64,000 nucleotides of DNA from Pseudomonadota bacterium (GTDB lineage: Bacteria > Pseudomonadota > Alphaproteobacteria > Rickettsiales > UBA3002): positions 186,001 to 250,000 of the forward strand of contig JAZKJM010000004.1 in NCBI GenBank assembly GCA_040384265.1, written 5' to 3'. The notes under the pieces are model-generated. The model searched no databases. It had not been told where the DNA came from and saw only the letters and a program-made list of their open reading frames with translations. Below are positions 1 to 9,919 of the stretch, one piece after another. Position numbers and translations under genes: made by a program. The number at the start of each line of letters is the position of its first letter. Within the stretch, counting starts at the first letter, position 1.

Positions 1-1077
1 GTTCAGGCATTCAGCATAATATTCCTGATCCTCGTCCGTCGGGCCGATGATATAGGCTTTCATGTCCGGCGTCGTCTGGCGCAGCAGGCCACAGGCGCGA
101 ATGAAGGTTTTGATGTCCTTGATCGGCACCACGCGGCCAATCAGGCCGATGGTCGGCGTCGCCGCGCGGCGATGGGCGAGGGCGGAGAAGCGCTTGATAT
201 CCACGCCGTTGGGAATAATCTGCATTTTCTCGATGCTGGCGCCGTCTTCGATCTGCGGTTTCTGGTTGCCCGAGAACAGGGTGATGATCTGGTCGCACGC
301 ATCGTAGCAGACGCGGCTGAAATTGCTGATCGAGTCGATCCACATATCGCGCAAATCGCGGCGCGGTTTGTCGATGGTCAGCGCCTTGGAGGAAGTCGCC
401 TCCAGCCAGTCCGCCGAAATCACCTCGATGCGGCGTTCGTTGGTGTAAATCCCATGCTCGGTGACAAACACCGGCTTGCCGGTTTCCACCTTCGCCCGCG
501 CCGCCATCAGGCCCGCATAGCCGGTGGACATCGCGTGATAAATATCAGCCTGTGGCAGGTTCGCCAGCAGCACGGAATAGACCCCGCCCGCAATCGCGCG
601 GTAGGACCAGAAATAATCGAGGAACGAGTGATCCGGGAACGAGACCTCATACAGGGCGAGCAGCTGTTTCCAGGCCTCTTCATGGTCGAGCAGGGCGGCG
701 GTGCCCAGCGTCGCGCGGGTGCCTTTGAGCACGTCCATGATGGTTTTCAAATCGGCCAGCGGCATGGCCTGTTCACTGGTCAGTGCGGCCAGCGGGTCGC
801 GCAGCGCACGGTGCACCCGCGCGGCAAGGTTGGCGTTGATATTGGCGCCTTGCGCCAGGTCGTTCAGGCGGATGGTGGTCAGCCCAATCACGTTGTTCGG
901 CAGGTCGTATTTCAGCGTCAAATCGCCATCGCGCGGCATAATGGCGCACAGGTGGAAGTTGAGATGGCTTTGCTCTTTGATAAGCCCATGCGCCCAGCCG
1001 GAAACGCCACCCGTCACATACGGGTACGTGCCCTCAAGGATGAGGCAGACATCGGCTTTTTGGTTTGATCCACGCAT
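1..1077 (-). CDS. pelF: PelF, cytoplasmic glycosyltransferase of Pel exopolysaccharide synthesis (3' end outside window)
   Basis: PelF-type GT4 glycosyltransferase, expected to polymerise the Pel polysaccharide from nucleotide sugars at the inner membrane. Reading from the ATG whose complement lies at 1075-1077, the N-terminus contains the PelF hallmark VCLILEGTYPYVTGGVSGW, then an HLCAIMPR segment, VFVTEHGIYTNER, and an IIPNGVD nucleotide-sugar loop followed by IGLIGRVVPIKDI at the start of the second Rossmann domain. A total of 359 codons are visible. PelF proteins are usually about 500 residues, so the C-terminal third is missing at the window edge. It is the last visible gene of the minus-strand operon and starts 28 nt after pelE; pelG would be expected next, outside the window. 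The identification rests on the N-terminal signature and on the pelB-pelD-pelE order upstream. Confidence 0.93.
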   Translation of the reverse strand, partial: MRGSNQKADVCLILEGTYPYVTGGVSGWAHGLIKEQSHLNFHLCAIMPRDGDLTLKYDLPNNVIGLTTIRLNDLAQGANINANLAARVHRALRDPLAALTSEQAMPLADLKTIMDVLKGTRATLGTAALLDHEEAWKQLLALYEVSFPDHSFLDYFWSYRAIAGGVYSVLLANLPQADIYHAMSTGYAGLMAARAKVETGKPVFVTEHGIYTNERRIEVISADWLEATSSKALTIDKPRRDLRDMWIDSISNFSRVCYDACDQIITLFSGNQKPQIEDGASIEKMQIIPNGVDIKRFSALAHRRAATPTIGLIGRVVPIKDIKTFIRACGLLRQTTPDMKAYIIGPTDEDQEYYAECLN

Positions 1078-1105
1078 TATCGGTCTCTCACTTCTCATTC
1101 ATGCT

Positions 1106-2239
1106 TCACGCGACTTGCATCCACAGGGATACGGCATCGCGAACATCTTGGGGCAGGGTGTCATGGGCGGCAATGCCGCGGCCATATTCAAGAATCGCGC
1201 GGCGCAGCTCACGGTGCTGGCCAAGGCGGAACAGGCACTCGAAATACCACAGCACCATCGTGTCCACCATCCAGCCGCGATCCAGCGCGTTGCGGAACCA
1301 CTCGGCAGCTTGTTCCCATTGCTGGCTACGGAAGAGCAGACGGCCTACCGCAATCCACGCTTCGGCGGAATTAGGCGAATCCGCCAGATAGGATTTATAG
1401 GACTGGATCGCCCGCTCGCGGTTCAGTTTTTCCAGTTCGGAATCGAGCACGCCGGTGAAGGCGTAATCATCGTAAAACTTGGCGAGCACTAAGGTGAGCT
1501 GGGTGTTGCCGGGCTCTTTCACGCGGGCCAGTTCAATCCGCTCCAGCTTGCTGGCAAACTCGCGCTCCACTTTGGCGATGGCGGTGGCCGCCTGCACGCG
1601 GATGGTGTTGCTGCTATCGGCCAGCGCAACGCGGAACGCAGGCGCAAACCGTGGCGAGAAGCGCGAAGTCATTTTCGCCAGCGCCCGGCGTTTCTGGTTT
1701 TCCGAGCCCAGCCGCATCACATCGGTAAACGGCATCACGCCATAGGCGCTGGGGTTCTCGTCGATCCCCTCGATGATCGTGTCGTAAATCGTCTGCGGGT
1801 CGCTTGGCGTGTCGGTCGGGAAAATGCTCTCGTACCAATCGCCGAAACGCTGCGCGCGGGCGCGGAAAATCAGCGTACTGACAAAGCCCAGCAGCGCCCC
1901 CACCGCCCCGAAAATCCCGGTGACGGATGACACAATCGCCAGCAGCGCCAAATGCTGCACATCCATCCCGCGGCGGTATTGCGTGTAAGCAATGCCCACC
2001 GTGAAGGCCGAAACCAGCAGGTGGATCAGCAACGGAATCACCGGCCACACCGTGGTGCCGATGAACAGGTACAGGGTGAACCCATGCACGATGACAAGGA
2101 TGATGGCGATGATGATGAACAGCCCGTTCAGGGCCGTCGCCTGGCTCACCATGTTGGCGTCATGCACGTCCTCGGGGACGAGCACGTCCTCGACATACTG
2201 ATCGTAATCGGCCGGTGCGATGGTGCTAGCGGACTTCAT
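1106..2239 (-). CDS. pelE: PelE, inner-membrane TPR protein of the Pel synthase complex
   Basis: The 377-residue protein has an acidic N-terminus, hydrophobic segments at about residues 38-60, 64-85 and 97-125, and then a soluble alpha-helical region with TPR-like repeats at about 225-350 (for example AEAWIAVGRLLFRSQQWEQAAEWFRNAL, shown here only as the landmark AEAWIAVGRLLF). This is the PelE layout: membrane anchor plus cytoplasmic TPR, acting with PelD, PelF and PelG. The ATG at 2239 lies inside the last codons of pelD, a 14 nt overlap, which suggests translational coupling. A TTG at 2254 could add five residues. Assignment is mostly from topology and position between pelD and pelF, because PelE sequences diverge strongly. 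Confidence 0.82.
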   Translation of the reverse strand: MKSASTIAPADYDQYVEDVLVPEDVHDANMVSQATALNGLFIIIAIILVIVHGFTLYLFIGTTVWPVIPLLIHLLVSAFTVGIAYTQYRRGMDVQHLALLAIVSSVTGIFGAVGALLGFVSTLIFRARAQRFGDWYESIFPTDTPSDPQTIYDTIIEGIDENPSAYGVMPFTDVMRLGSENQKRRALAKMTSRFSPRFAPAFRVALADSSNTIRVQAATAIAKVEREFASKLERIELARVKEPGNTQLTLVLAKFYDDYAFTGVLDSELEKLNRERAIQSYKSYLADSPNSAEAWIAVGRLLFRSQQWEQAAEWFRNALDRGWMVDTMVLWYFECLFRLGQHRELRRAILEYGRGIAAHDTLPQDVRDAVSLWMQVA

Positions 2240-3584
2240 GAAGCGCCTGCACAATATAGTTGAAGGTCACGCCGCTCTTGCCACGCAGCGCGCGGTCCAT
2301 ATCCTTGGCGATCTTGTCGCGCACGATGGCGGCACCGGCTTGCGCCGTGGCCGGCAGCAGGATGGAATATTCCTCGCCATCCGTCTGGTAATCGAACGCG
2401 AGATCGACGCTACGCAGCACCGCTTTCACTGACTCACCAATCTGGCGGGCAATGGTAATGCGGTCGGCATCCGACAGGGCTTTGGCATCGTTCAGCTTAA
2501 TCACCAGCATCGACAGGTCGAAGCCGACGCGCTTGGCCAGCTTGCTCATATAATCGCTCTGGCGCTTGAAGTAGCTGTAGCTGAGCATGTTGCGCTCGGG
2601 GTTGACGATCGATTCGCTCTTCACGCTCTGGTAGTTGCGGGCGTTGACCAGCGCCGTGCCAATCCATTCGGAAAGCGCGCGGAAGGTTTCCACCGTGTTG
2701 AGCGACAGCGAGGTGAAATCCATCTGCTCGATTTTGAGCATGCCGATCACGCGGCTGGATTCTGCATCCATGACCGGGCCGGCGACAATGCCCTGGCCAT
2801 CAAGCGAGATTTCATGCTGTTCGTTGGCCACCACCAGCAGCTCGCGCTGGCCCACAACGGCCTGATAAAGCGGGCTGAAAGAATCGATTTCCTGGGTGTA
2901 TTTATCACCCGGCGCCCAGCCATGGATGATGGTCGCGCTCAGCTTGTTTTCATTGAACAGGTAGAGCGAAAATTTCTGCGGCCCCAGCACCGATTTCACG
3001 AGGCGTTCCACGCCCTGCATGACCGATTTGGGATCAAGCGTCTCCACCGCTTTGGCGGCGCGATAGGCTTCGATGGACGACGACAACTGGCCCGACACCT
3101 GCACTTCGAGCGATTCCTTGCGGTGCTTGACGAATTTATAGGAATCCGAAATCAGGTCTTCGCGCTGGTGCGATTCATCCAGCTCTCGCGTCAGCATGCT
3201 GCGCTCGCGGATATGGCGCTGGCGCAATTCGCCAACCACCCAGCCGCCGATGAGCCACAAAATCGGGTTGACCGAGATGGTGTAGATCCAGTCATAGTGG
3301 TTCACGCCTTCCGCCGGGGTCAGCACGCTGGTGTTGCCGATCAGGTAGAAACAGGTCGCAAACAGGGCTGCGAGCAGGCCTTCCGCCGCGCCATATTGCG
3401 CCGCCATCAGTAGTACCGGAATCCAGAACGGATGCGGATTCATATCCCAGAAGCGGTGGCCGTTGAGGACAAAAGCATCAACCAGCGTCAGGATGACAAG
3501 CAGCACCAGCATCTCGACGATGGCACTAACGCGCATCCCGAAGAAGCGTGCGTGTTCTTTTTCAACAGAAGGGGTGGGGTTCAT
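2226..3584 (-). CDS. pelD: PelD, membrane c-di-GMP receptor with GAF and degenerate GGDEF domains
   Basis: PelD is the inner-membrane receptor that turns on Pel synthesis when it binds cyclic di-GMP. The 452-residue product matches the usual length. It has four hydrophobic segments between about residues 25 and 135 (DUF4118-like), a linker helix, a GAF domain at about 165-315, and a C-terminal GGDEF-like domain. In the latter, the catalytic motif is degraded to TDGEEY, while an RSVD tetrad at about 391-394 sits where the RxxD inhibitory c-di-GMP site lies in GGDEF proteins. This supports a receptor rather than a cyclase. The ATG at 3584 follows AAGGTAG. The gene lies directly after pelB, where Pseudomonas operons carry pelC between them. 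Confidence 0.92.
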   Translation of the reverse strand: MNPTPSVEKEHARFFGMRVSAIVEMLVLLVILTLVDAFVLNGHRFWDMNPHPFWIPVLLMAAQYGAAEGLLAALFATCFYLIGNTSVLTPAEGVNHYDWIYTISVNPILWLIGGWVVGELRQRHIRERSMLTRELDESHQREDLISDSYKFVKHRKESLEVQVSGQLSSSIEAYRAAKAVETLDPKSVMQGVERLVKSVLGPQKFSLYLFNENKLSATIIHGWAPGDKYTQEIDSFSPLYQAVVGQRELLVVANEQHEISLDGQGIVAGPVMDAESSRVIGMLKIEQMDFTSLSLNTVETFRALSEWIGTALVNARNYQSVKSESIVNPERNMLSYSYFKRQSDYMSKLAKRVGFDLSMLVIKLNDAKALSDADRITIARQIGESVKAVLRSVDLAFDYQTDGEEYSILLPATAQAGAAIVRDKIAKDMDRALRGKSGVTFNYIVQALHEVR

Positions 3585-3602
3585 ATGCTACCTTTGCTTC
3601 AC

Positions 3603-6600
3603 TTAAAATTTGTAGATGATGTCGGCGCCCACATCGAGCGCCTGGTTGTCGGTGTTGTTGGTTTCCTGCGCGTAACGGGCGCGGGCGCCAACCTGCCAGT
3701 TCTCGGCGATGTCCTGGTCGATATGCGCTTCCGCCAGCGGGCTGAACCCGCCATTGATGCGGTCATACGCCGCACCGCCGACCAGTAGCGCATGGGTGGT
3801 TGGCGTCCAGTCGTCGCGGTAAATACCGGTCAGCGCGTGCACTTCGCGGGTGCGCACGGGCAGCAGGTAATATTCCGTGCCGAACGCATCGGTGCGCGAA
3901 TCCGGTTTGCCGCCGGTGATATATTCCCCGTCAAACCCGTAGCCAACGCCGAGATACGGCTGCGTTGCCGTCATCGGTTGGATTTCCTGGATCAGGTTGG
4001 CACGCACCAACGCGGTCTGCGCCACATCCATCTGCAGGTCGGTGCCGTAATTGTTGTACGACGCTTCGAGGCCCAGCGACGTGGTTGGCGTCAGGTTGGC
4101 ATAATGGGTGAAGCCAACGCGGTCGCGCGTCGCATGCTCATACACCGCCTCGATGAAGTCCCAATACGGCCGCTTGTATTCGCCGATCAGCTTGGTGCGG
4201 CCAAGTTCGGTGGTGAAGTCGTAATACGCGCCGCCGCCTAGGGCCTTATTGTTGCTGAACAACGATGCCTGTGCCCGCTCCCCATCCGCGAAATTATAGG
4301 CGGCATACAGTTCGCCGCGTTGGCGAGTGCCGTCATAATTGCGGACCCTCCCGTCGTCTGCTGCGCGGGTTCTGTGGGTGTTGAAGTAATCGTTCTGCAC
4401 GTTGGCGCCGATCTCCGCACCGCTGCGGCTATGAACAATCGTCGACAGGGTGGTGATCTGCTCATCGTTCTCGCCAAGGCCACGATACTGGTGGTCAAGC
4501 TTCACGTAATTGGCTTCCGGCGACGCGGCATTGCCGGTGCTGGTGATGTTCTGCGCCTGCAGGGTCAGCCCTTCGTTTTCCGGTGCCACGCGGCGTGCCT
4601 GCTCCACCAGCTGGATCGCCTGCGTGCGGTTGCCTGCCGCACTGGCCAGCGACGCTTCGTAGCTCAGCAATTGCGGGTCTTGCGGGTAATATTGTTTCAA
4701 CGCAGTGACGCGTTCTTGCGCTTTGTCCGGCTGGCCGGAATCCTGCTCGATGCGGGCATAGAGCAGCTGCAGGCGCAGGTCTTGCTGGCGCTGTTCTTCT
4801 ACCAGCGGCGAATAGTTTGGCTCGGCTGCGGGAACCACCATGAACTGCTGTTCCGCCGTCGGCACATAGCGCACGACATAGCCGGGCTTGGCCGAAATGG
4901 TCATGCTGTCATAGCCGGTTTCGCTGCCTTGCAGCCATGCCAGCTGGTCGGCTTTCGCAAGGTTAATGGGCGAGGTGCCTTCGATCGGTTTGTTAAAGCC
5001 GATGCGCAGTTCACGCCCACCGCTCAGCCGCTCCACCGATGCCACATGCGCCGACATGCCCTGCAGGGAAACGCCCTTCTGGTAGTACGGCGAATTCTTG
5101 TCATACTGGTTGGCGATTTTGGTGGCCTCATCGACATAATGGTATTCGATCAGCGCGCTCATATAATCCGCCAGCACGCCCTTGTTATCGGGGTATTGGG
5201 CGAGCAGTTCGTTGAACCCTGCTTTTGCCTGCGCATGCTGGCCAAGGCGGAATTGCGACGTATACAGGCGCGACAGCGCGTCCGGCGCCGTAGTGCTGGC
5301 GGCGGGGGTCAGCACCACCACCTGGTTATATTCCATCAGCGCGGCAGGCATGTTGCCTTCGCGGCGATGCAGCTCGGCCTTATAGAAATGCGCCTGCGCC
5401 GGGTTGGATTCCGCATCCGGAGTGGCAGTCTGCGACTGGGTGTAGAGATACTGGTCGAGATTGTGGTCAGCCGCGCTGAACTTACCCTTCGAGAAATCAA
5501 GCGCTGCCGACTGGCTGAGCGCCTTGGCGTTGGTTGGCTCGAGCGCCAGCACGCGTGCGTAGCCGCTCACCGCGGCGTCGCGGAAACCATAGGCCTGCGC
5601 GGCGCTTGCGTAATCGAGCAGGGCGGGCACATCGGTGGTTTGAGCCACCCAGCCGCGCATCGCGACGTCGTAGTTACTACGGTTGCCGCTGCTGGCCAGC
5701 ATGCGGAAATATTTCTGGCGCAGCGGGCGGTTATAAAGCGCCTCGGGCGTGGTGCTGACATACTGCATCAGGTCGCCGTCGGTAGCCGTGTTGCCGATAA
5801 TTTCCGACCAGCGTTGCTTGTCATACGCGTTCGCGCTGGCGGCGCGTTGCTGCACCCATGCCAGCTGTTCGCTGTTCAGCTTGCCGCCCCACAGATAGAC
5901 CAGATCCTTCACTTCCTGCGAATCCGGGCCTTTATCTTTCGCCAGCTCCTTGAACAGCACCACCGCGTCGGCTTTGTGGCCGTCATTCAGCAGTTGGAAA
6001 GCAATCTGGCGTTTGTTGGATTGGCTGATGGTCGGGCTGCTGCTCATCGCCACCAACTGCTCGCGCGTCAGCTTCACCGGCAGGCCGCTCGCTTTATACG
6101 ACGCTTTCTGTGTCAGCTGCGCATACATTTTCTTCCACTCACCGCCGCGTTCGCTCGCATAGCCTTTCGCAATCGGGATCACCGCATCCTTGCGGCCATT
6201 GTTGATCATCACATAGGCATAATTCAGCTGCTGGCGGGCATCGCCACGGCCTGCGCGCAGCGCGGCCTCGGCATAATCGGCCAGTTCCTTGCGGGCATTC
6301 GCATCCTTGCGCGCCATTTTGCTCAGCGTGGAAATATACAGCCCGTCATTCGCGCCGCTGTCTTTCACCTGCTCGCGCAGCAGCGGCAGGGCTTTGTCAT
6401 AGGCCCCGGCGGTGATGTAGCCGTTGGTCATGATATCGCGATTCATCGGCGACGGGTCACGCGCATAGAGGCGCTCGGCGATGTCCATCGCCACGTCGCC
6501 ATGGTGGCGGTCATTGGCGAGGTAGAACAGCTCCTGCAATTGCGACGCGGGCACAATGTTGGCCTTTGCTTCCAGCCACGGTTTCAGCACATCCATGCGG

Positions 6601-8120
6601 CCGCTCGCGGCGGCAAGGCGGTGATGGGCAATCACCACATCGGCATGCGCATCCGGCAGTGCGGCTTTGGCGCCGACCGGGTCCACCAGCTCACCCGCGC
6701 GCTCAGCGATGATGAACAGCTGCGCATATTCCGCAATCTGGTTGGGCGCCATGGCATCCAGCGCCGGGAATTGTTTCAGGATCGCCTCGAAACAGGCGGT
6801 TTTCTTCGCACGCGCGCAGGATTCCGCCAGGCGGATGCGCTGGGTGGAACCAAGCTGCGTGTTCAGCGCGGTTTCAATCCGCGCGTCCTGCGCTTTGTCG
6901 TTGCTGAGGATGGCGATCACCGCTGCCAGCACCGGCTTGCCTTCCAGCACCACCGCATCGTTGAAGCGGGTGGTGAGGGTGGTGACGATGGCAGGCGCAT
7001 TATTCGCCCGTGCCACTTCAATGATGTTGAGCGCCTGCTCCTCGGTGAAGAGCTGCACATCCAGTTTGGTCGCAATCGCCTGCGCTTCCGCCATGTCCTC
7101 GCGTTTGATCGCAAGGTCGAGATAGGGCTGGTAGAGCAGCGGCGTCATTTTTCCAGCCACATCCATTTTCTGCAGGATGGCATAGGCATGATCCGCGCGG
7201 CCCGCGTTGATGTTGGCGTTCACATAGGCGACCACAAGGTCGATGTTGGTATCGAGCATCGCCACATGCGGCTCCACCAGCGCCACCGCCTTATCCGGGT
7301 GGCCGCTATAGTTGAGGATGTTACACAGGTCGGCCAGCTGGGCCGGGCGCGGGTCAGTCTGCAGTAGCGGTGCGGCACCGTCCGCCGTCGGCGCAACTGG
7401 AGCAGGGATGGGGGCAGGCAGGGGCGATGGCACCGGCGCGCTTGGGCTATTCACCCACTCCTGCGCGGCTTTGAAGGCTTCATCCACCCGGCCCTTATCG
7501 GCCAGCACGCTGACCATGATGCGGGTCATCGGATAGCTGGAGAAGGTCGGGTGTTTTACTTTCAGCGCCTCGACCGTTTTCAGCGCGCCATCGGTGTCGC
7601 CAATCACTACCTGAATGGTCGCAAGGTCAACAAATGCCTCAGGTTTTTTGCCCTCGGTCACATCGATAATACGTTGCAGCACGGCGGCTTGTTTCGGGTA
7701 ATCCTTATTGGCGTTATAAATATCCGACAGCACGCGCAGATTATCTTCCGTCGGTGCGGCTTTGGCGATTTCTTCCAGCTGCAGGCTATAGCCCGCCTGG
7801 TTGCCGGCCAGCTGATACTGCTCGGCCAGTTTCTTGCGGCCGTTCACATCCGCCGGGTTGGCGGTCACATATTCCTCAAGCAGCGTGATTGCTGCCGGAC
7901 GGTCGCCCGCCGCCACGCGTTTGTCCGCCAGCGCCGCCACAATCGGGTAGCTACGGTTGCCTTGCGTATATTCCGCCTCAACATCCGTCGTGCTCAGATC
8001 GACCGTTTGCGCGCCGCGGTTCTGCGTTGCCGCCACTTCACCGGCGGTTGGCAGCACATACAGGCTGATCGCAATCCCGCTGACGAGAAGAACCAGAGCG
8101 ATGATAATATACTTACGCAT
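3603..8120 (-). CDS. pelB: PelB, periplasmic TPR scaffold with outer-membrane beta-barrel for Pel export
   Basis: Very large 1505-residue protein. An N-terminal hydrophobic helix (about residues 4-23) is followed by roughly a thousand residues of TPR-type helical repeats (landmarks such as GDTDGALKTVEALK and DPQLLSYEASLASAAGNRTQAI), then a C-terminal region rich in alternating aromatic strands ending in IIYKF, the terminal-Phe signature of outer-membrane barrels. PelB exports the polymer and uses its TPRs to hold PelA. It is longer than the approximately 1190-residue Pseudomonas protein, mainly in the repeat region, and has Pro/Ala-rich spacing around residues 230-250 (repeats of PAPIPAPVAP). 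It starts 37 nt after the hydrolase gene and ends 18 nt before pelD, with no gene between. Confidence 0.92.
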   Translation of the reverse strand: MRKYIIIALVLLVSGIAISLYVLPTAGEVAATQNRGAQTVDLSTTDVEAEYTQGNRSYPIVAALADKRVAAGDRPAAITLLEEYVTANPADVNGRKKLAEQYQLAGNQAGYSLQLEEIAKAAPTEDNLRVLSDIYNANKDYPKQAAVLQRIIDVTEGKKPEAFVDLATIQVVIGDTDGALKTVEALKVKHPTFSSYPMTRIMVSVLADKGRVDEAFKAAQEWVNSPSAPVPSPLPAPIPAPVAPTADGAAPLLQTDPRPAQLADLCNILNYSGHPDKAVALVEPHVAMLDTNIDLVVAYVNANINAGRADHAYAILQKMDVAGKMTPLLYQPYLDLAIKREDMAEAQAIATKLDVQLFTEEQALNIIEVARANNAPAIVTTLTTRFNDAVVLEGKPVLAAVIAILSNDKAQDARIETALNTQLGSTQRIRLAESCARAKKTACFEAILKQFPALDAMAPNQIAEYAQLFIIAERAGELVDPVGAKAALPDAHADVVIAHHRLAAASGRMDVLKPWLEAKANIVPASQLQELFYLANDRHHGDVAMDIAERLYARDPSPMNRDIMTNGYITAGAYDKALPLLREQVKDSGANDGLYISTLSKMARKDANARKELADYAEAALRAGRGDARQQLNYAYVMINNGRKDAVIPIAKGYASERGGEWKKMYAQLTQKASYKASGLPVKLTREQLVAMSSSPTISQSNKRQIAFQLLNDGHKADAVVLFKELAKDKGPDSQEVKDLVYLWGGKLNSEQLAWVQQRAASANAYDKQRWSEIIGNTATDGDLMQYVSTTPEALYNRPLRQKYFRMLASSGNRSNYDVAMRGWVAQTTDVPALLDYASAAQAYGFRDAAVSGYARVLALEPTNAKALSQSAALDFSKGKFSAADHNLDQYLYTQSQTATPDAESNPAQAHFYKAELHRREGNMPAALMEYNQVVVLTPAASTTAPDALSRLYTSQFRLGQHAQAKAGFNELLAQYPDNKGVLADYMSALIEYHYVDEATKIANQYDKNSPYYQKGVSLQGMSAHVASVERLSGGRELRIGFNKPIEGTSPINLAKADQLAWLQGSETGYDSMTISAKPGYVVRYVPTAEQQFMVVPAAEPNYSPLVEEQRQQDLRLQLLYARIEQDSGQPDKAQERVTALKQYYPQDPQLLSYEASLASAAGNRTQAIQLVEQARRVAPENEGLTLQAQNITSTGNAASPEANYVKLDHQYRGLGENDEQITTLSTIVHSRSGAEIGANVQNDYFNTHRTRAADDGRVRNYDGTRQRGELYAAYNFADGERAQASLFSNNKALGGGAYYDFTTELGRTKLIGEYKRPYWDFIEAVYEHATRDRVGFTHYANLTPTTSLGLEASYNNYGTDLQMDVAQTALVRANLIQEIQPMTATQPYLGVGYGFDGEYITGGKPDSRTDAFGTEYYLLPVRTREVHALTGIYRDDWTPTTHALLVGGAAYDRINGGFSPLAEAHIDQDIAENWQVGARARYAQETNNTDNQALDVGADIIYKF

Positions 8121-8157
8121 GCGTGTAGCCTCTTACGACGGGAGTACAATGAGATCG

Positions 8158-9021
8158 TTAACGATGGTCGCGACGGACTGGCACTGCTTCCGGGGTGAAA
8201 TGCTGAAGGTCGGGCAGGGTGACATAGGGAATAAAACCCTGTGCACGCTGCATGGCGTAGATACGTTCCAACCCTCGAGCATCATCCTGATACCAGTAAT
8301 CCAGTGTAAATACCTGCAGATGCGGTGCGAGCGCGACTACGTTTTGCAGCTTTTTAGCCACTTCAGCCACCGTCTTTGGCGGAAATAGCTCAAAATGTCC
8401 AGTAGAAACATTGGTGTTAGCCAGAATGCTCTCGGCGAGGACATAGTCGATGTCCGGGGCCACATCCGTTAACACACTGAAGCCTCTGTTTAACATTATC
8501 TTCATCTTTGGGTGCTTGGCGCGAATGGCGTGGATCAGCATCGCCGCCCCCTCGCGCATGGCGTCCACCCGGCCCGGAGCATTCACCTCGGCCCAGTGCA
8601 GCGGCGCATCCACCGTGTCGAGCATCACCCCGTCGAAGCCCTTGCTGGCAGCGTCATCCACATAACTCAGCACCATGTTGCGCCAGATCGGCGAGGTCAG
8701 GTCAACCGCGTGGCTTTTCCAGACAGGATGCTGGGAAAGAAGCAGTTTTTTGCCCTTGAGGATGTCTTTTTCCGGCACATCGTCATACACTTCGCCCATG
8801 CTGACATAGGCCAGCACCAGCGTATCCCCTTTTAATTCCTTGAATTTTGGGTATGAGCGGCGGTCGAACACCACCAGGTCCATGCTGGAAAACGCGCTGG
8901 CGGGCAGTTTCGTGTCGTAATACACCGCCCATGCCTGCATGTCGGTGCCCGTGCGTGTCAGCGGGGTGCAGCCGGTCAGGCATAAAAGGGCGGTGAGTGC
9001 CTGTTTCAGCCGTTTACGCAT
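8158..9021 (-). CDS. pelA: PelA-like glycoside hydrolase lipoprotein, lacking the deacetylase region
   Basis: The 287-residue product starts with a lipoprotein signal ending in LTGC (Cys at residue 18), followed by one TIM-barrel glycoside-hydrolase domain of the GH114/GH166 type: WAVYYDTKLP, VLAYVSMGEV, GFDGVMLDTVD, KIMLNRGF, DYVLAES and FTLDYWYQDD. This corresponds to the N-terminal Pel hydrolase domain of PelA. Pseudomonas PelA is about 950 residues and also has a polysaccharide deacetylase region, which is absent here and not encoded next door. The ATG at 9021 overlaps the end of the epimerase gene by 8 nt; pelB follows. Role inferred: trimming Pel-like polymer in the periplasm while anchored to the outer membrane. 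A TTG-type upstream start is unlikely. Confidence 0.85.
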   Translation of the reverse strand: MRKRLKQALTALLCLTGCTPLTRTGTDMQAWAVYYDTKLPASAFSSMDLVVFDRRSYPKFKELKGDTLVLAYVSMGEVYDDVPEKDILKGKKLLLSQHPVWKSHAVDLTSPIWRNMVLSYVDDAASKGFDGVMLDTVDAPLHWAEVNAPGRVDAMREGAAMLIHAIRAKHPKMKIMLNRGFSVLTDVAPDIDYVLAESILANTNVSTGHFELFPPKTVAEVAKKLQNVVALAPHLQVFTLDYWYQDDARGLERIYAMQRAQGFIPYVTLPDLQHFTPEAVPVRRDHR

Positions 9022-9919
9022 CGGCCAGCAGCGCAGCAAGCCCCTCAGCCAGCGTCGTTGGTGCTAAAAATCCGAGACGCGCTTGCGCCAGCGCCGGGTC
9101 GCCCAGCGAATGGCGAATATCGGCGATGCGGGCCGGGCCGTGGGCGGTCGCAATCGCATGGCCAAGCGCTGTGCCGATCTGGTCGGCCAACTGTTTGAGG
9201 CTGATCGCCTGCCCGCTGCAGCCGTTGAAAATCTGCGCGCCGGCCATATGCTCCAGCGCCTGCGTGATAAGCGTCACCACATCGCCGACATAGATAAAGT
9301 CGCGCGTTTGCTCGCCATCGCCGAAAAAGGTGAGGGGGCGCCCGGCCTGCGCATCGGCCACAAACCGGCTGATAACGCCCGAATAGGGCGATGTCGCATC
9401 CTGCCGCGGCCCGTAAACATTGAAAAACCGCAAGCCGACACTCGGCACGCCATGGAAATCCCATGCAATCGCAGCGTTGCGTTCGCTGCTATATTTATCG
9501 AGCCCATAGGCGGAAAGCGGGTGGGGCGTCGCGGTTTCAGCCAGCGGCAGCACCGGCTGGTTGCCATATACCGCGGCCGACGAGGCATACACCACCGGCG
9601 TGCGCATCGCCCGCGCCGCGTCGAGAATCGTCACTGTGCCGGTGAGGTTGGTGCGGTGCGCGTTCAGCCAATCCTGCGTGCAGCGCTCAACGGACGCCAC
9701 CGCCGCCAGATGGATCACCGCATCCGCCGCTGCGACGAGGGGCTGCACCAGCGCCGCGTCCGCCACATCGCCCACAACCAGCGTGGCCCCGGCCGCGAGC
9801 TGTGCGCGTGTGCCGGTCGAAAGATCATCGAGCACCGTCACCCGGTGGCCCGCTGCGACCAGCCGATCCGCCGTGTGCGACCCAATAAACCCGCAGCCGC
9901 CTGTGAGGAGTATATGCAT
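9014..9919 (-). CDS. NAD-dependent sugar-nucleotide epimerase (PelX/GalE/WbpP-like)
   Basis: Extended short-chain dehydrogenase of 301 residues. The NAD-binding TGGCGFIGSH motif is at residues 6-15, an acidic DDL follows strand 2, catalytic Ser is at 113/114 (YASSAAVYG) and Tyr138-x3-Lys142 lies in SAYGLDKY. RFFNVYGPRQ and FFGDGEQTRDFIYVGD are typical of UDP-glucose/UDP-GlcNAc 4-epimerases. As the first gene of the pel operon, overlapping the hydrolase gene by 8 nt, it most likely supplies UDP-GalNAc for Pel, as PelX does in some pseudomonads; this substrate is an inference from context. A general GalE role is the alternative. Confidence 0.85.
   Translation of the reverse strand: MHILLTGGCGFIGSHTADRLVAAGHRVTVLDDLSTGTRAQLAAGATLVVGDVADAALVQPLVAAADAVIHLAAVASVERCTQDWLNAHRTNLTGTVTILDAARAMRTPVVYASSAAVYGNQPVLPLAETATPHPLSAYGLDKYSSERNAAIAWDFHGVPSVGLRFFNVYGPRQDATSPYSGVISRFVADAQAGRPLTFFGDGEQTRDFIYVGDVVTLITQALEHMAGAQIFNGCSGQAISLKQLADQIGTALGHAIATAHGPARIADIRHSLGDPALAQARLGFLAPTTLAEGLAALLADA

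Follow-up and report, generated by a model that had tools for sequence, protein, structure and literature searches.

In Pseudomonas aeruginosa, the exopolysaccharide Pel is made by the products of a single pelABCDEFG operon, and the literature consulted regards deacetylation of the polymer by PelA as a requirement for Pel and PelC as indispensable for its export. A point mutant in the deacetylase of P. aeruginosa PelA yields no detectable extracellular Pel (PMC10269871), and carbohydrate esterase family CE21 was recently founded on PelA (PMC12022489). PelC, described as essential (PMC12141448), has been proposed to act in P. aeruginosa as an anionic funnel serving the chain, which is cationic once deacetylated (PMC10269871). 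Published pel loci include rearranged, duplicated and split ones (PMC7112194) and a Gram-positive form that lacks both PelB and PelC (PMC7112168). In the latter, pelDEA(DA)FG of Bacillus cereus, the functions of PelA are split and the hydrolase is a separate protein; the deacetylase is retained in the operon and the hydrolase lies outside it (PMC7112168). Judged by P. aeruginosa, a Pel machine deprived of both deacetylase and PelC may fail or depend on parts that have escaped notice. Our literature search found no paper on a Gram-negative pel operon with PelB that lacks both PelC and the deacetylase.

Here we analyse such a locus in an uncultured alphaproteobacterium of the family UBA3002 (order Rickettsiales in GTDB). 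The window under study is a 64,000-nt stretch of contig JAZKJM010000004.1 (assembly GCA_040384265.1; 2.0 Mb, 95.5% complete), in which the pel genes occupy the left end.

Results and discussion

Organisation of the pel locus

The operon lies on the minus strand and runs leftwards in the order epimerase, pelA-h, pelB, pelD, pelE, pelF and pelG. Its first gene (9014–9919) encodes an NAD-dependent sugar epimerase of the GalE/PelX-like type (Pfam Epimerase, E 1.5e-56), which scored below the cut-offs of TIGR01179 (galE) and the other SDR models and is syntenic in the window's family and in Azospirillum; it is likely to be the supplier of UDP-GalNAc. PelA-h (8158–9021), a predicted lipoprotein of 287 aa counted from its ATG, consists of a GH114-type hydrolase domain (PF03537, E 1.8e-20). 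A 37-nt gap separates pelA-h from pelB (3603–8120), which codes for a PelB-type exporter of 1505 aa with a transmembrane helix, TPR repeats and a C-terminal predicted beta-barrel. The stop codon of pelB (3605–3603) is followed by the ATG of pelD at 3584, and the 18 nt in between (3585–3602) contain a ribosome-binding-like AAAGG and are too short for any gene; pelC occupies this same position in Azospirillum. PelD (2226–3584) combines transmembrane segments, a GAF domain (PF13492, GAF_3, E 1e-11) and a degenerate GGDEF domain (match to 6d9m) with the I-site RSVD. PelE (1106–2254), a membrane and TPR protein, was assigned on its TPR matches, its position and its homology to PelE of other loci.

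The GT4 glycosyltransferase PelF enters the window with its 5' 366 aa (1–1098, minus strand; NF038011, 298 bits for this part). The full-length protein of 505 aa (L002 17581–19098, left of the window) scored 459.9 bits against a cut-off of 100, and the transporter PelG (489 aa; L002 16080–17549, left of the window) is encoded downstream of it. A profile built from this PelG and its relatives matched the annotated PelG of Azospirillum with an E-value of 3e-175. To the left of pelG lie two adjacent 132-aa ORFs (L002 15187–16001) which have no homologue in the loci of relatives; considered as a possible PelC or esterase, they resemble neither and are unconserved. Beyond them are an ornithine/lysine-decarboxylase-like gene and a deoxyhypusine-synthase-like gene, both syntenic in relatives. 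Apart from such unrelated flanking genes, no conserved gene was found to have newly joined the pel loci of the family, and no small conserved neighbour gene was seen.

These results bear out the preliminary description, which had been drawn from the letters of the window and had proposed the order epimerase, PelA-like hydrolase, pelB, pelD, pelE and pelF, an 18-nt pelB–pelD spacing with no pelC in it and a PelA of 287 residues, hydrolase only, with no deacetylase. Since the same gene arrangement recurs across the window's family, it is not an artefact of a single assembly.

The operon appears to be functional

Comparison of three congeners gave dN/dS values of 0.09–0.40 for all seven genes, with synonymous sites partly saturated, and on this sequence evidence all seven are under purifying selection. 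The RxxD motif of PelD (RSVD, residues 391–394) is conserved and the EX7E motif of PelF is kept. PelF is found in all 14 genomes of the family, spanning 9 genera, and the ORFs are long and intact wherever the contig is long enough. Since a gene that Pseudomonas cannot do without is missing, one might suspect an operon in decay, whose polymer is no longer made; set against the retention of PelF across the whole family, the long intact ORFs and the low dN/dS values, this is very unlikely.

Loss of the CE21 deacetylase

Between pelA-h and pelB, sister families of the order carry a separate ~777-aa gene that codes for a deacetylase with conserved HIDGD and SHxxxH metal motifs. A profile for this protein, which matches the non-hydrolase part of crystallised PelA (9cgy, E 2.7e-82), detected a homologue in 10 of the 11 other PelF-bearing genomes of the order (the exception being G018) and in 13 of the 15 PelF-bearing genomes among 289 sampled from across the Alphaproteobacteria, where the two exceptions were the window genome and G151. 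The same whole-genome search gave no hit in the window's family, whose 14 genomes all carry PelF. In this class a deacetylase gene is thus the usual companion of pel, and it has been lost cleanly here, with 37 nt between pelA-h and pelB in the window. A hydrolase-only PelA, as in the preliminary description, is not in itself odd in the class, where the deacetylase is normally encoded by a gene next door; it is that neighbour which has been lost here.

The preliminary description had also raised the recruitment of a separate deacetylase, and had named pelC and a deacetylase gene beyond the left edge of the window or elsewhere as a finding that would overturn it. Neither gene was found there: the sequence past the left edge completes pelF and pelG, and the genome-wide profile searches were negative, so that this placement was rejected. 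Recruitment is likewise disfavoured, given that the window genome gave no match to CE21, CE4, DUF2334 or PIG-L. We nevertheless weighed the case that some other periplasmic esterase, unrelated or unrecognised and with its gene elsewhere in the genome, still removes the acetyl groups of the polymer. Deacetylation is required in both P. aeruginosa and B. cereus (PMC10269871), and the genome-wide search covered the four deacetylase types named above. Against this stand the negative outcome for each of those four types in the window genome, the absence of CE4 from 13 of the 14 family genomes (the window genome included) and the fact that only unrelated flanking genes adjoin the family locus. Such an esterase is, in our judgement, rather unlikely.

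The opposite combination, with PelC kept and the deacetylase lost, was observed in G151, whose locus L098 has pelB, pelC, pelF and pelG, with pelD, pelE and the deacetylase not detected.

A lipobox in the hydrolase

PelA-h of the window matches the structure of the PelA hydrolase (5tcb, E 3.9e-19), and alignments showed that the catalytic Asp135 and Glu197 are kept. Its N-terminus carries the lipobox LTGC with Thr as the residue after Cys. A lipobox was present in all seven complete PelA-h sequences from deacetylase-less genomes (six from the window's family and that of G018) and in none of the 13 from deacetylase-bearing loci, where the protein begins instead with an ordinary signal peptide, a twin-arginine-like leader or a membrane helix. 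On a tree of PelF and PelG, these joint changes in lipobox and deacetylase correspond to two independent events, which are too few for a significance test and consistent in direction. In E. coli, the absence of Asp after the lipobox Cys predicts sorting to the outer membrane; no deacetylase-less PelA-h has Asp at this position, and the outer membrane is probably where the protein is anchored. Adaptation of PelA-h to a neutral substrate was not seen in its charge, the protein being no less acidic where the deacetylase is missing (mean net charge −6.7 vs −4.3, p 0.11).

Beside the pel locus of G044, a genome of the same order, we observed a gene for a 682-aa protein in which a GH114-like domain is fused to RTX-type calcium-binding repeats; genes for an ABC transporter and an HlyD-like protein come next (L049 13006–18526). 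The protein may be a Pel hydrolase that leaves the cell through a type I system.

Absence of PelC

Our PelC profile matches the solved PelC proteins 5t11 and 9h80, which come from other phyla and classes, and it detected PelC strongly in four genomes of the class sample (E down to 9e-52). Across 56 genomes of the order it returned nothing credible, the one hit being a sub-significant fragment (E 0.03) in a 514-aa frame of G050, and a search with the GNA1162 family gave only a sub-threshold match of 41 positions. The pelC of Azospirillum sits between pelB and pelD; in the loci of the order that have both genes on one stretch, pelB adjoins pelD in all but G044, where the pel genes are dispersed. 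Seven other alphaproteobacterial loci in the class sample also lack PelC, have an alpha-type PelB barrel beside pelD and belong to genomes with a deacetylase gene. The absence of PelC that had been proposed for this locus is thus confirmed for both locus and genome, but it is not peculiar to it: being order-wide, and shared with other alphaproteobacterial loci that keep PelB and deacetylase, it is a wider property of alpha-type loci, some of which, such as that of Azospirillum, do have PelC.

A PelC too divergent to be detected, or replaced by another small lipoprotein, would give the same picture; PelC is a small protein, and the outer-membrane parts of the Pel machinery are reported to be more divergent than those of the inner membrane (PMC7112194). 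The profile nevertheless recognised PelC of other phyla and classes as well as alphaproteobacterial PelC and found nothing credible in the order, the GNA1162 match was short and sub-threshold, and no small conserved gene neighbours the locus, which together make a hidden PelC unlikely. A domain at about residues 1020–1095 of PelB was considered as a substitute for PelC and rejected, as it is also found in the PelB of Azospirillum, which has PelC.

The PelB exporter

The window PelB has an N-terminal transmembrane helix and a TPR scaffold (Pfam TPR matches) and a C-terminal predicted beta-barrel at about residues 1205–1505, ending in an aromatic residue. Searched against the PDB, the profile of this barrel found no PelB, whereas a profile of beta- and gammaproteobacterial barrels matched the PelB of 9h80 (E 1.5e-17). 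A comparison with hhalign gave a probability of 51%, and the alpha-type barrel is not detectably similar in sequence to that of Pseudomonas. When AlphaFold was run on the barrel alone, the model was of low confidence (pLDDT 42.4) and contained 16 predicted long strands; the C-terminal 801 aa of PelB gave a pLDDT of 43.5, both values being low because only two or three sequences were usable. With the low-confidence barrel model, Foldseek returned generic outer-membrane barrels, none with E <0.001, and these were given no weight. A shift in charge of the PelB barrel or TPR region with loss of the deacetylase was looked for and amounted to tendencies only, not clean ones, over the two independent losses with a readable PelA-h.

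Many alphaproteobacteria encode the TPR part and the barrel of PelB in two separate genes (for example L054 2819–7468, L063 6132–10854 and L099 6265–11000), the barrel gene often with its own export signal; in the window's order PelB is mostly one gene.

Comparison with related loci and a proposed pathway

The window locus shares with P. aeruginosa PelF, PelG, PelE, PelD with its RxxD I-site, a TPR–barrel exporter, the PelA hydrolase domain and their placement in one operon. It differs in the lack of PelC and of a CE21 domain, in a PelA-h that is a lipoprotein, in the added epimerase and in a barrel without detectable sequence similarity. The plasmid-borne locus of Azospirillum thermophilum (NZ_CP029356.1, L063) is closer, with the order epimerase, pelA-h, pelB, pelD-E-F-G and an alpha-type barrel, but has a separate deacetylase gene of ~755 aa, a pelC (217 aa, annotated as GNA1162 family), a PelB split over two genes and a PelA-h without lipobox. 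Loci of the sister families (L041, L046, L050, L052, L037, L054 and L096) have the same genes, with pelB adjoining pelD and no pelC where both are on the contig, and differ in having kept the ~777-aa deacetylase between pelA-h and pelB. Compared with B. cereus, the loss is the reverse one, and that organism has neither an outer membrane nor PelB.

On the PelF and PelG tree, the absence of PelC spans the whole order and the loss of the deacetylase is nested inside it, which suggests that PelC was already absent when the deacetylase was lost. The reading we favour, with moderate confidence, is a functional, c-di-GMP-controlled Pel-type operon in a lineage that lost its CE21 deacetylase after the order was already without PelC. 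Of this, the gene content, the absences, the motifs, the lipobox and the selection are read from the sequence, and the substrate, the acetylation state, export without PelC and anchoring in the outer membrane are inferred. A lineage lacking PelC may tolerate such a loss better. In the pathway we propose, the epimerase would supply UDP-GalNAc, PelF would polymerise GalNAc, and PelD, PelE and PelG would drive and gate transport across the inner membrane. The chain would then travel along the long TPR scaffold of PelB and exit via an alpha-type barrel able to work without a PelC ring. With no deacetylase to act on it, the polymer would be exported N-acetylated and roughly neutral, and PelA-h, anchored through its lipobox instead of partnering a deacetylase subunit, would trim or release chains. 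The suggestion in the preliminary description that the polymer stays acetylated is thereby supported as something we infer from the missing deacetylase and PelC.

The locus might instead make a different polymer, of another sugar or linkage, to which deacetylase and PelC are irrelevant. The sequence of the epimerase does not define its substrate, its scores with the galE and other SDR models being below cut-off, and PelB is strongly unlike that of Pseudomonas. PelF, however, clears the equivalog cut-off by a wide margin, selection maintains a PelA-type hydrolase whose catalytic residues are intact, and the nearest members of the order pair the same PelF, PelG and epimerase with a PelA-type deacetylase; a different polymer is in our estimate improbable. 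Returning to the Pel-type reading, its bolder form is that fully N-acetylated Pel is exported in a Gram-negative lineage by a PelB that works independently of PelC, and that the hydrolase became anchored to a membrane in step with the loss of the deacetylase; we give this a little short of an even chance. If it is true, Pel export has no intrinsic need of either deacetylation or the PelC ring. The view that they are required finds a natural test in a whole family in which selection maintains the remaining machinery with neither deacetylase nor PelC.

Alphaproteobacterial loci such as this one will escape surveys of pel operons that take PelC or full-length PelA as their starting point. A further arrangement was observed on plasmids of Sulfitobacter and Cereibacter (Rhodobacterales; L065 and L066), where pelF and pelG occur with a Wza-type 'polysaccharide biosynthesis/export' protein that replaces PelB and PelC, and a deacetylase homologue is kept on the opposite strand.
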